Of a stretch of 33,625 bases of DNA, positions 7,275-10,327 are shown piece after piece. The notes beneath the pieces were generated by a model that had not been told where the DNA came from, made no database searches, and saw only the letters and a list, made by a program, of their open reading frames with translations. This stretch comes from Dehalococcoidia bacterium (GTDB taxonomy: Bacteria > Chloroflexota > Dehalococcoidia > DSTF01 > WHTK01): NCBI GenBank assembly GCA_035574915.1, contig DATLYJ010000137.1:1-33625 (forward strand), given 5' to 3'. The position numbers were made by a program, and so were the translations under genes. The number at the start of each line of letters is the position of its first letter. Within the stretch, counting starts at the first letter, position 1.

Positions 7275-8264
7275 TCACCCCAGGCGCGACTGCCAGCGCT
7301 CGATCACGTCCGTGTTCACTACCGTGGGCGGCACGTGGCCGCTGATGCCGGCGATCAGGTTGTCGACCGCGAGGTCGATCATCGCCTGGCGGGTCTCGAC
7401 CGTGGCTGTGCCTATGTGGGAAAGGATGAAGGCGTTGTCGAGCCGGAGGATTGGCTCCTCCGGGTCTGGCGGCTCCTTTTCGAGCACGTCCAGGGCCGCG
7501 CCGGCGATCCGGCGTCCCTCCAGGGCGCGCGTAAGGGCCGCCTGGTCGACCACCGGCCCGCGCGAGGTGTTGATCAGGTAGGCCGTGGGCTTCATGAGGG
7601 CCAGCTCGCGCTCGCCGATGAAGCCTCGCGTCGACGGGTTGAGGTCCACGTGCAGAGTGACGATGTCGGCTTCCCGCAGCAGGTCTGCCTTCTCGCGGTA
7701 CTCGGCGAAGGGCGCTTCCGGCGGCGGCTCCCGGAAGAGGTCGTGGAACAGCACCCGCATGCGGAAGGCCTGGGCCCTTCGCGCGACGGCCCGCCCGATG
7801 CGCCCCAGGCCGATGATGCCCAGCGTCTTGCCATGCACGTCTACGCCGAAGGCCGGGGGCGCGGCCCGGCCCCAGCCCGTCTTCGCGTAGGCGGAGAAGG
7901 CGCCGAGGTTGCGGCAGACGTAGACGATCAGGCCCAGCGTCAGGTCCGCGACCGCCTCCGTGAGCACGTTTGGCGTGTTGGTGACCACGATGCCCGCCTT
8001 CGTGGCCGCCGCCAGGTCGACGTTGTCATACCCGACGCCGACCTGGGCGATAACGCGCAGCGGCGGCGGCACGGAGGCGAAGAACTGCGCGTCCAGGGGC
8101 GCGCTGTTGCCGCAGAGGAGGCCGACAGCGCCGCTGAGCGACTCCAACAGCTCTGCGCGCGTCAGAGGGCCGGCCGCCTGGCGCAGGCGCGGGGCGCAGA
8201 CGGTCCCCAGGCGCGCCAGGGTCTCTTCGGGCAGGCGGGCGGTCACGAAGACATCGGCTGTCAT
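7275..8264 (-). CDS. D-2-hydroxyacid dehydrogenase (glyoxylate/hydroxypyruvate reductase type)
   Basis: The 329-residue product has the NAD(P)-binding Rossmann core GIIGLGRIGRAVARR (about 149-163) inside a split substrate domain, and the catalytic trio of the family: Arg235 in INTSRGPVVD, Glu264 in LDVLEKEP and His283 in LSHIGTAT. The VGYDNVDLAAATKAGIVVTNTP and LTEAVADLTLGL segments are typical of GyaR/GhrB-like enzymes, which reduce glyoxylate, hydroxypyruvate or related 2-keto acids in the cytoplasm. An acid at the end of strand 2 of the Rossmann fold (FHD, about 174-175) suggests NADH preference. It overlaps the upstream hydrolase gene by four bases, so the two form an operon. Confidence 0.9.
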   Translation of the reverse strand: MTADVFVTARLPEETLARLGTVCAPRLRQAAGPLTRAELLESLSGAVGLLCGNSAPLDAQFFASVPPPLRVIAQVGVGYDNVDLAAATKAGIVVTNTPNVLTEAVADLTLGLIVYVCRNLGAFSAYAKTGWGRAAPPAFGVDVHGKTLGIIGLGRIGRAVARRAQAFRMRVLFHDLFREPPPEAPFAEYREKADLLREADIVTLHVDLNPSTRGFIGERELALMKPTAYLINTSRGPVVDQAALTRALEGRRIAGAALDVLEKEPPDPEEPILRLDNAFILSHIGTATVETRQAMIDLAVDNLIAGISGHVPPTVVNTDVIERWQSRLG

Positions 8265-9226
8265 GAGGGCTGCACTCCTTCGGCCCGCAGGCCGCCGGGA
8301 CCCGCGGTCTTCTCGCCCAGGAAGTCGGTTAGCAGGCGGTTGACGGCTTCGGCCTGCTCTTCCGGCACCAGGTGGCCGGTCCGCGGCAGCACCACCAGCC
8401 GGCTGCCGGAGATGCCACGCGCCAGCGTCTCCCCGTGCCGCAAGGACACGATGCGGTCCGTGTCCCCCCAGATTATGAGCGTCGGCGCCCGAATTCGCCC
8501 CAGGTCGATGCGCGCGTCGCGGCGCCGGTCTCGCATCAGGCGCTGGTAGGCGCGCGTGTGACCGCGGATGTGGCCCGGCGCCTCATAGGCAGCGATCACT
8601 TCGGGAGTCAGGTAGGCGGGGTCGTAGACGGCCCTGCTCAGCCAGCGTCGCCGCACCGGGTGATTGTGGAGGACCGCGGCGACGAATGCCGGGACGAACG
8701 GCGCCAGCCAGGGACTGGCGCCAGCGGCCCGGAGCATGAAGTCGTCCGTGGTCGAAGCGATGAGGACGAGGCGTGCGACCCGCTCCGGGTACGCGACCGC
8801 GAAGCGCTGGGCGATTGACCCTCCCATCGAGTGCCCGACGAGGGCCACGCGCTCCAGGCTCAGGAGGTCTAGCAGGCTCGCCAGGTAGCCGGCTTGCGCC
8901 GTGAGGGACAAGTCGGCGACATCCCGGCTGGTGAACCCATGCCCGGGGAGGTCCACGGCGATGACGCGCCGGCCGCGCGCGATCTCCGGGAGGTTGAGAC
9001 GGAAGCTGTAGGTTGAGGCGCCAAGTCCGTGAAGAAGCACGACGGCGGGCCCTTCGCCCTGGTCCAGGTAGTGGATGCGGCCGACTCCCGGGACGTGCGC
9101 GAGATGGCCGGGCGGTTTCGTCGCCTCCAGGTCCACGTACTCATAGCGCCGCGCCTCGAGGTCGCCGCCGAGCTTGGCCGCGGCCAGGCCCGCACCGATG
9201 AGCGTAAGGAGGCTCCCGGACCGCAC
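8261..9226 (-). CDS. Alpha/beta hydrolase
   Basis: The fold and triad are clear over 321 residues: oxyanion loop LLHGLGAS (64-71), nucleophile elbow GHSMGG with Ser133, the acid in WGDTDRIV (Asp257) and His285 in RTGHLVPEE. A lid of helices (about 160-225) separates the halves. The N-terminus has a hydrophobic stretch (LLTLIGAGLAAAKLGG), perhaps a membrane anchor or uncleaved signal. The GTG at 9226 is preferred over the longer frame to 9274, which would run into a repeat element: a -10-like CATACT stands exactly six bases upstream, the same layout as mutS2 and pth. Substrate unknown; it is coupled to the 2-hydroxyacid dehydrogenase. Confidence 0.85.
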   Translation of the reverse strand: MRSGSLLTLIGAGLAAAKLGGDLEARRYEYVDLEATKPPGHLAHVPGVGRIHYLDQGEGPAVVLLHGLGASTYSFRLNLPEIARGRRVIAVDLPGHGFTSRDVADLSLTAQAGYLASLLDLLSLERVALVGHSMGGSIAQRFAVAYPERVARLVLIASTTDDFMLRAAGASPWLAPFVPAFVAAVLHNHPVRRRWLSRAVYDPAYLTPEVIAAYEAPGHIRGHTRAYQRLMRDRRRDARIDLGRIRAPTLIIWGDTDRIVSLRHGETLARGISGSRLVVLPRTGHLVPEEQAEAVNRLLTDFLGEKTAGPGGLRAEGVQPS

Positions 9227-9232
9227 GCAGCG

Positions 9233-9238
9233 AGTATG
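9233..9238 (-). promoter_or_regulatory. -10-like CATACT for the hydrolase, leaderless layout
   Basis: On the minus strand CATACT (four of six matches) is followed by six bases and then GTG. No ribosome binding site lies before the GTG. The exact spacing repeats that seen before mutS2 and pth, which strengthens an otherwise modest match. Confidence 0.35.
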
Positions 9239-9248
9239 CCAGAGGTAG

Positions 9249-9380
9249 CAGTTCAGCCGGTCAGCGGTCAGCACTTCAGCCGGTCAGCATTGCAGGAGGG
9301 CGCCGCTCGAAGTGCCTTGCTCGCTGACGCCCCGAAGCCCACTGACCGAAGTGCTGAAATCCTGAAATCCTGAAGTGCTG
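9249..9380. repeat. 132-bp tandem repeat, copy 1
   Basis: The first 96 bases are identical to copy 2. The left part (CAGTTCAGCCGGTCAGC and on) is a run of near 8-base units of the form NNNTCAGC, and the right part (GAAGTGCTGAAATCCTGAAA and on) is a run of the reverse-complement type CTGAARTS. The unit therefore has inverted arms flanking a core GGGCGCCGCTCGAAGTGCC and can fold on itself, for example CAGCACTTCAG with CTGAAGTGCTG. Confidence 0.9.
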
Positions 9381-9512
9381 CAGTTCAGCCGGTCAGCGGT
9401 CAGCACTTCAGCCGGTCAGCATTGCAGGAGGGCGCCGCTCGAAGTGCCTTGCTCGCTGACGCCCCGAAGCCCACTGTCTGAAGTGCTGGAACCCTGAAAT
9501 CCTGAAGTGCTG
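9381..9512. repeat. 132-bp tandem repeat, copy 2
   Basis: This follows copy 1 without a gap; 9381-9476 is identical to 9249-9344. Its right arm diverges slightly and continues past the unit end to 9524 with more 8-mers: CTGAAGTG, CTGGAACC, CTGAAATC, CTGAAGTG, CTGAAATG, CTGAAGTC. No coding frame with good features crosses the repeats. The region 9227-9655 otherwise holds only the upstream sequence of the sigma factor gene. Confidence 0.9.
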
Positions 9513-9597
9513 AAATGCTGAAGTCCTCCCCCTGTACTCTTTTCCAGCGGAAGCGTATTGTTGAGATCACGGATGCATAGGCGGCCCTGAAGGGAGC

Positions 9598-9614
9598 TAT
9601 CGAAGACTTCGATA
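9598..9614. promoter_or_regulatory. Perfect 17-bp palindrome upstream of the sigma factor
   Basis: TATCGAAG-A-CTTCGATA is an exact inverted repeat of eight bases around a single A. It lies 41 bases before the sigma factor ATG. Both a regulator binding site and a leader hairpin are possible; the one-base centre favours a protein site, because a hairpin would have to open several pairs for its loop. Confidence 0.5.
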
Positions 9615-9655
9615 AGCAGGGCGAAGTGGGATGGCGGTGACTCGGAGGGCGCTTC

Positions 9656-10327
9656 ATGACCCTGGACGCTGACGACGGAATCCTGCGGCGGCGCTGGAAC
9701 GTAGATATCGGTAGAGGCACCGAGAGCTGGGAAGCGGACGCGGGTGACCGGCCCCTCGACTACGCCGACGCCGGAGATGAGCGTCTCGTTATCCTTCTCG
9801 CCGGCCGCGACGTTCGGGCCCTGGAGACCCTGTACGACCGCTACGGCGATTACGTCTACTCGGTCTCTCTACGAGTCGTCGGAGACCCGCAGCTGGCGGA
9901 GGACATAGCGCAGGAGGTGTTCCTGCGGCTGTGGCGACGGCCGGACCTGTTCGATGCCGCGCGCGGGCGCTTCGTCACCTGGCTGCTCAGCGTCGCCCGT
10001 AACCGGGCGATCGACGAGCGGCGGAGCCGCGACCGGCGCTTCCGGCACGAGAACCCGCAGGGCCTCGAGTCGGAAGAGTTGCCGGCCCGGGCCGAAGACC
10101 CGGTCGACACGGCGCTGCACGCGGACGACCGGGTGTTGATCCAGAGGGCCCTGGCCCTCCTGCCCAGGGAGCAGGCGGACGCGATAAGGCTGGCGTACTT
10201 CGGCGGCTACACACAGCAGGAGATTGCGGAGGGGCTCAAGCAGCCGCTCGGCACGGTGAAAACAAGGATCAGGCTGGGCCTTCAGAAACTCAGGGCGGTG
10301 CTGATCGAGCAAAGGGACGGTCGGTAA
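9656..10327 (+). CDS. ECF-type RNA polymerase sigma factor (SigK-like)
   Basis: The 223-residue protein has region 2 (about 57-125) with LYDRYGDYVYSVSLRVVGD, the core-binding DIAQEVFLRLWRRP and the -10-recognition helix GRFVTWLLSVARNRAIDERR, then a linker and region 4 (about 160-215) with LPREQADAIRLAYFGGYTQQ and the helix-turn-helix EIAEGLKQPLGTVKTRIRLG. An N-terminal extension of about 40 residues precedes region 2. A GGAGGG ribosome binding site stands six bases before the ATG. It is followed after four bases by an RskA-type anti-sigma gene, so it is almost certainly held inactive at the membrane by that partner. The regulon cannot be told from here. Confidence 0.95.
   Translation: MTLDADDGILRRRWNVDIGRGTESWEADAGDRPLDYADAGDERLVILLAGRDVRALETLYDRYGDYVYSVSLRVVGDPQLAEDIAQEVFLRLWRRPDLFDAARGRFVTWLLSVARNRAIDERRSRDRRFRHENPQGLESEELPARAEDPVDTALHADDRVLIQRALALLPREQADAIRLAYFGGYTQQEIAEGLKQPLGTVKTRIRLGLQKLRAVLIEQRDGR

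Follow-up and report, generated by a model that had tools for sequence, protein, structure and literature searches.

Bacterial arrays of seven- or eight-base units have so far been reported genome by genome and with separate explanations, including quadruplexes, translational regulation and regulator binding. The closest described class to the arrays analysed here is that of the GGGAATC heptamer of Xanthomonas. The heptamers GGGAATC of Xanthomonas and GGGGA(C/T)T of Nostoc are dispersed and intergenic, with partly conserved units and usually few units per site (Rehm et al. 2015, PMC4692102). In Xanthomonas, 70-75 convergent inverted pairs occur per genome, an ORF lies closer on one side of the repeat than on the other (28 vs 160 nt) whatever its direction, and 83% of the repeat positions are common to two species; phase variation was judged unlikely for GGGAATC (PMC4692102). 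TAACTGA heptamers are known from Beggiatoaceae, Cyanobacteria and Bacteroidetes, with only one inverted repeat in the main genome studied (MacGregor 2015, PMC4679880). For Geobacter metallireducens, pairs of hepta- and octanucleotide arrays have been interpreted as protein-binding sites and named 'putative global regulator binding sites' (PMC2700814). Finally, long simple sequence repeats with units of 5-11 nt were described by Mrazek et al. and, as cited in PMC4679880 and PMC4692102, were explained by slippage.

The window analysed here is a whole stretch of 33,625 nt from the draft genome of a Dehalococcoidia bacterium. It carries a tandem element between a divergent gene pair. The left neighbour is an alpha/beta hydrolase gene on the minus strand (8261..9226; Pfam Abhydrolase_1, 5.7e-35), and the right neighbour is an ECF sigma factor gene on the plus strand (9656..10327; Pfam Sigma70_r2, 1.9e-21, and Sigma70_r4_2), followed by the gene of an RskA-like anti-sigma factor. 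The 5' ends of both neighbours face the array, at gaps of 26 nt and 134 nt, respectively. The element itself consists of two copies of a 132-bp unit without assigned strand (9248..9379 and 9380..9511), which were detected by repeat search and TRF, adjoin head-to-tail and are identical at 128 of 132 positions (97%). A preliminary description of the same DNA had recognised these two copies, placing their start one base late at 9249, and had counted 96 identical bases between them. The first 97 positions of the unit are identical, and all four substitutions (9345/9477, 9347/9479, 9357/9489 and 9360/9492) are located in or beside the right arm.

Each copy has a left arm of NNNNTCAG octamers and a right arm of CTGANNNN octamers, which are oppositely oriented and enclose a GC-rich core of about 50 bp (9296..9345 in copy 1 and 9428..9477 in copy 2, no strand assigned), which differs between the copies only in its last base. 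The left arms, composed of units that read ...TCAG, lie on the minus strand at 9253..9287 (chains 9253-9264 and 9268-9287) and 9385..9419. On the plus strand, the right arm of copy 1 covers 9346..9379 with the units CCGAAGTG, CTGAAATC, CTGAAATC and CTGAAGTG, and that of copy 2 is longer, covering 9478..9527 with CTGAAGTG, CTGGAACC, CTGAAATC, CTGAAGTG, CTGAAATG and CTGAAGTC. This agrees with the arms noted before, namely ...TCAG units on the left, CTGAARTS-type units on the right and an extension in copy 2. Allowing up to three mismatches, CTGAARTSCTGAARTS, which represents two CTGAARTS units, has 14 matches in the window, 13 of them inside the element, compared to 1.1 expected and a maximum of 3 in 100 shuffles. 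The recent duplication that had been proposed appears to be a genuine, later and ordinary tandem duplication of the whole unit, its age being judged solely from the 97% identity of the copies. A second array locus of this genome is also tandemly duplicated at a spacing of 132 bp (contig C49:1343-1600, L207; arrays at positions 1433 and 1565). It has no sequence relationship to the unit in the window and is located at the start of a truncated-globin gene; the equal spacing may be a coincidence.

The octamers form a dispersed family in the genome. In the 3.25-Mb draft, which comprises 183 contigs, CTGANNNNCTGANNNNCTGA has 99 overlapping matches and its reversed control none. Arrays of CTGANNNN are grouped in about 19 clusters on 15-16 contigs, all of which (19/19) are intergenic according to the gene calls. 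The genome search for CTGAARTS that the preliminary description had proposed led to other loci with the same octamers as well as to relatives that carry them; the corresponding search for the core gave short matches only. Among tetramers that occur three times in succession at a pitch of eight, CTGA is the most frequent in 330 kb taken mostly from array-bearing contigs, and the tetramer pitch counts for other periods contained codon-like signals only. A motif-free scan for periods 5-12 detected 18 period-8 arrays, all 18 noncoding, and one other noncoding array. This period-8 share of 18 out of 19 noncoding arrays applies to the scanned 330 kb, whose contigs had been selected largely by the CTGA pattern; the remaining genome was surveyed for CTGA only. 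In the relatives, the noncoding arrays had almost only periods of 7 or 8, in regions mostly chosen by the CTGA or GGCA pattern. On four contigs of the genome (C9, C23, C49 and C83; L202, L203, L207 and L211), a predicted ATG start lies inside the last octamer (CTGACATG or CCGACATG).

The unit is roughly CTGA-M-V-T-S, in which positions 1-4 are CTGA and four variable bases follow: A or C at position 5, A, C or G at position 6, mostly T at position 7 and G or C at position 8. Among 191 units, 47 are distinct. In chains allowing one missing unit, 101 of 104 interior units retain the full CTGA anchor, a conservation that is somewhat overstated because the detector itself requires CTGA. Adjacent units in the window's genome differ at 1.95 of the four variable positions and units of different loci at 2.04. 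Since neighbours differ as much as units from other loci, they are not slippage copies of each other in this genome. The slippage of 8-mers that had been suggested as a source of length variation is therefore not visible here, and 132 is not a multiple of 8. Adjacent units are more alike in two relatives (G007 and G015) and in Chloroflexi and Verrucomicrobia loci.

Beyond the view of the preliminary description lie the fixed polarity of this dispersed family relative to gene edges and a sister genus that uses another octamer likewise. The polarity was determined for 62 clusters, 54 of them one-armed, which come from the window's genome and from three relatives in its order (G005, G007 and G015). 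Of the one-armed clusters, 45 have the CTGA strand directed towards the closest gene and 8 away from it, with one tie (p = 2e-7). The median gap is 9 nt on the side to which CTGA points, compared to 129 nt on the opposite side. In all eight two-armed clusters, a TCAG arm is followed by a CTGA arm. The ratio is 33:8 at stop edges and 15:1 at start edges, and this likeness makes a sense-strand signal unlikely. Arms within 30 nt of an edge are found at stops in 41 cases and at starts in 16. The gene edges were taken from a simple codon-usage ORF caller, and several of the polarity violations involve overlapping gene calls. Stops within CTGA could bias the start-edge calls, though not the stop-edge calls, and the opposite sign in other genomes indicates that the gene caller does not create the rule. 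Single CTGA or TCAG motifs outside of arrays show only a weak asymmetry at gene edges genome-wide.

To our knowledge, there is no mechanism that produces such a polarity towards gene edges. Three-frame stop codons, provided by the TGA in CTGA, cannot account for a polarity that is also seen at 3' edges; moreover, Verrucomicrobia and two genomes of another family of the phylum (G118 and G296) show the reverse sign. Rho-utilisation arrays, with UC every 8 nt on the TCAG strand, are improbable as well, since the base frequencies of the unit show no excess of C over G on this strand and the sign is opposite in other lineages.

The relatives differ in word and sign. G001, a genome of a sister genus within the family, has hardly any CTGA arrays, with one match to the three-unit pattern. 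Instead, it contains about 230 matches of the octamer GGCANACK with up to two mismatches, of which the window's genome has five; this number is approximate, since the reversed control, too, gives a high count (177), in part owing to the similarity between the unit and its reversal. The exact GGCANACK matches listed in this genome alone span dozens of loci (L345-L364 among them), and these arrays are polar as well, with GGCA directed away from the closest gene in 19 cases and towards it in 5 (p = 0.007). In G118 and G296, the arrays have a period of 7 or 8, and the CTGA arrays have the opposite sign in 9 of 9 cases. Paired 7-mer arrays in these two genomes have locus-matched complementary arms (0.574 vs 0.247 permuted). 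At L303-L322 of these genomes, inverted heptamer pairs with locus-matched arms fill the intergenic regions from edge to edge, among them GATTGCA/TGCAATC, AACAGGG/CCCTGTT, GAATGTT/AACATTC and GATAGCC/GGCTATC.

The wider distribution of the arrays is patchy. A CTGA array of four units is present at least once in 27 of 400 sampled genomes of the phylum, and few genomes are rich in them. A scan for CTGAARTS only also detected arrays in Verrucomicrobia, Rubrobacteraceae and others, and in Verrucomicrobia loci near genes TCAG mostly reads toward the gene. In several Verrucomicrobia loci (L063, L081, L099, L118, L137 and similar), CTGAAATG arrays often open with GGGTAAA, a few bases away from a start codon. 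Three contigs of uncultured viruses (L031, L032 and L033) carry three-unit CTGAAATG arrays, apparently between genes. A search for plasmid relatives found none.

Turnover was seen in small samples, namely at the purB site and at one orthologous site. The array directly upstream of the purB start in the window's genome is absent from six relatives. Two species of one genus differ at the right edge of one orthologous intergenic site, which carries CTGA octamers in one species and two different heptamer arrays in the other. As for the gene pair in the window, another gene lies upstream of the sigma factor in G001, where no match to the hydrolase was found at the cut-off used.

On balance, we give an even chance to the reading that the arrays have grown by mutation and are intergenic arrays of fast turnover, the window element being one member that was duplicated as a whole, without need for a locus-specific function. 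A mutational process with a register of 7-8 bases, such as short-range template switching or slippage during DNA synthesis, would let arrays grow in dispensable DNA, and purifying selection would halt this growth at gene boundaries. The fixed polarity would then reflect a strand asymmetry of the mutational process and not a sense-strand signal, and the 132-bp duplication would be a later and ordinary tandem event. We infer this origin alongside a layout, a lineage-specific word and sign, and an absence at the tested orthologous site that were directly observed. Its support comes from the dispersal, the period, the polarity at both kinds of gene edge, the turnover at the sites compared and the related class in Xanthomonas (PMC4692102). 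A point against it is that neighbouring units in the window's genome are not copies, contrary to the prediction of plain slippage. In addition, selection could have kept the anchor intact while the other positions vary freely. In Xanthomonas, 83% of the repeat positions are conserved between two species (PMC4692102), more than is expected for fast-turnover junk, which also counts against a mutational origin, as does the absence of any known mechanism for a polarity towards gene edges.

A more far-reaching version of the mutational origin, which we consider unlikely as it stands, is that a so far undescribed DNA-synthesis or end-extension activity with a register of 7-8 bases acts in several phyla and writes genus-specific words with a fixed strand direction to gene edges. 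If this were true, the arrays would be the signature of one general process and not many unrelated repeats. The same layout, with a 7- or 8-base register, a partly fixed unit, a location beside gene edges, one strand direction at both starts and stops and convergent pairs, was found in different words in sister genera and with the sign reversed in other lineages. Should it prove general, its cause cannot lie in any particular word, as it would with G-quadruplexes or stop codons, and where the arrays come from can be tested in terms of DNA synthesis and of selection at gene borders.

The main rival to a mutational origin is a binding array, which is favoured by the fixed anchor and the free spacer. 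Here, a DNA- or RNA-binding protein, possibly oligomeric, would recognise CTGA (or TCAG) every eight bases and mark or insulate gene boundaries. Since the four spacer bases are nearly free, the units look independent, and neighbours that resemble independent draws, the strict polarity and the close position to gene edges are all consistent with putative binding sites. The opposite-strand 7/8-mer pairs of Geobacter metallireducens have been read in the same way (PMC2700814). However, the word is wholly different between sister genera, six relatives lack the purB array, and other lineages show the opposite polarity. Moreover, ten proteins were scanned (nine array-adjacent ones and the anti-sigma factor), and those matched to a family are housekeeping or ordinary proteins. 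Recognition by a binding protein is possible, with a clearly lower probability than a mutational origin.

It is improbable that the arrays are RNA or DNA hairpin elements, i.e. a terminator, a REP/BIME-like insulator or an mRNA-stabilising structure whose stem happens to consist of octamers. The long hairpin proposed in the preliminary description is supported for the unit itself, as RNA folding predicts a long imperfect hairpin for the 132 nt (-54.7 kcal/mol, z -2.8). All mixed clusters have their arms in hairpin order, and the locus-matched 7-mer arms of G118 and G296 also fit a hairpin. As an organising principle, however, the hairpin did not hold: the complementarity of left and right arms is not higher within a locus than between loci, either in the window's genome (permutation, P = 0.71) or in G005, G007 and G015 (P = 0.66), and 54 of the 62 clusters have one arm only. 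The arm-permutation test therefore led to the rejection of the hairpin as a conserved unit in the window's genome. An intergenic region filled from both edges looks like a hairpin, since the same word is present in two orientations.

A specific role in termination was likewise rejected from the gene context, since the excess of arrays between convergent genes is not significant (odds ratio 1.6, p = 0.23), and no intrinsic terminator, i.e. a GC-rich short stem with a T run, was found in 9100-9700. An Rfam search of the element matched no family. This, together with the missing link to RAYT or Y1 transposases, bears out the previous statement that the element is not a known REP sequence; a palindromic unit of 20-40 bp with a tetranucleotide tag, as in REP/BIME, was not found, the arms being arrays with variable bases that are not matched within loci. 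A CRISPR array, with identical repeats of 20-50 bp, unique spacers and cas genes, had been excluded before and was rejected here, too, as the units are 8 nt long and lack spacers, and the neighbours are a hydrolase and a sigma factor gene.

Even less probable is an expression switch similar to phase variation, in which the number of octamers would alter the spacing of the hydrolase and sigma factor promoters. The array is located in a divergent promoter region, the two copies differ in array length, and some relatives have similar adjacent units. Against this, there is no sign of slippage in the window's genome, more arrays are located at 3' ends of genes than at 5' ends (41 stops, 16 starts), the associated genes with a match are housekeeping or ordinary genes, and phase variation was considered unlikely for GGGAATC (PMC4692102).

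We regard it as very improbable that the octamer arms belong to a non-autonomous mobile element, such as a MITE or a RAYT-mobilised REP. The dispersal of inverted-arm elements and their patchy distribution across phyla would fit such an element, but no core is shared between loci, no target-site duplications were recognised, and neither Y1/RAYT genes nor reverse transcriptases track the arrays. Y1_Tnp is absent from G007, which has 42 array matches, and present three times in the nearly CTGA-free G001 and twice in the CTGA-free G002. In the 20 genomes searched, reverse transcriptases do not follow the arrays either. RVT_1 was detected in three of these 20 genomes, and a reverse transcriptase gene is present in the window's genome at G000:C119:7498-8298 (L295). 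An assembly artefact or chance, which a draft of 183 contigs might suggest, is hardly credible, because the copies differ at four bases and are thus not one sequence collapsed or doubled, and because arrays are present on many contigs as well as in relatives whose genomes were assembled independently.

Compared to the known systems, the window's family shares with the GGGAATC heptamer of Xanthomonas its dispersed and intergenic location, the partly fixed unit, the convergent pairs and the one-sided closeness to ORFs. It differs in that its unit has eight bases, is anchored by CTGA and is not G-rich, and the outward-reading strand, which is G-rich in Xanthomonas, reads TCAG here. Quadruplex formation can therefore not be the general reason for the layout, and CTGAMVTS, which has no G-tract, does not belong to the quadruplex-forming repeats. 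Whereas 83% of the sites are shared between two Xanthomonas species, the single site of the window's family examined across relatives is not shared. Similar to TAACTGA (PMC4679880), the arrays are intergenic direct repeats that contain CTGA, are patchy across phyla and are often located directly upstream of starts. The TAACTGA repeats differ in that they have a unit of seven bases, occur mainly in one orientation upstream of starts and show little symmetry between starts and stops (PMC4679880), and the 8-nt unit falls outside the 7-nt definition of TAACTGA. The arrays of Geobacter metallireducens (PMC2700814) also consist of tandem 7/8-mers that are paired on opposite strands with variable spacing, and one of their classes is MTYCTGA; they differ in their fixed number of units (4 or 5) and in their consensus words.

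The long repeats of Mrazek et al., as far as they are described in the papers citing them, resemble the arrays in unit length and non-coding bias, heptamers being dominant there and units of 7-8 bases here; unlike in that slippage class, neighbouring units in the window's genome are not copies. The features common to the repeats of Rehm et al. and Mrazek et al. are present: dispersed tandem units of 5-11 nt, a non-coding bias, one-sided closeness to ORFs and convergent pairs. Neighbours that look like slippage copies were found in some relatives and not in the window's genome, which bears on slippage and not on the descriptive class of Rehm et al. REP/BIME sequences are likewise dispersed, extragenic, potentially hairpin-forming and sometimes tandem, and differ in having a palindromic unit of 20-40 bp, of which none was found here, as well as in the unmatched arms and the missing association with RAYT in the present family. 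A CTGA-anchored octamer, a change of word between sister genera and a reversal of sign between lineages were not found in a limited search of the open-access literature. The TAACTGA repeats and the 7/8-mers of Geobacter metallireducens are further members of the same loose class as GGGAATC, and the arrays of the window extend this known, unexplained class of bacterial repeats.
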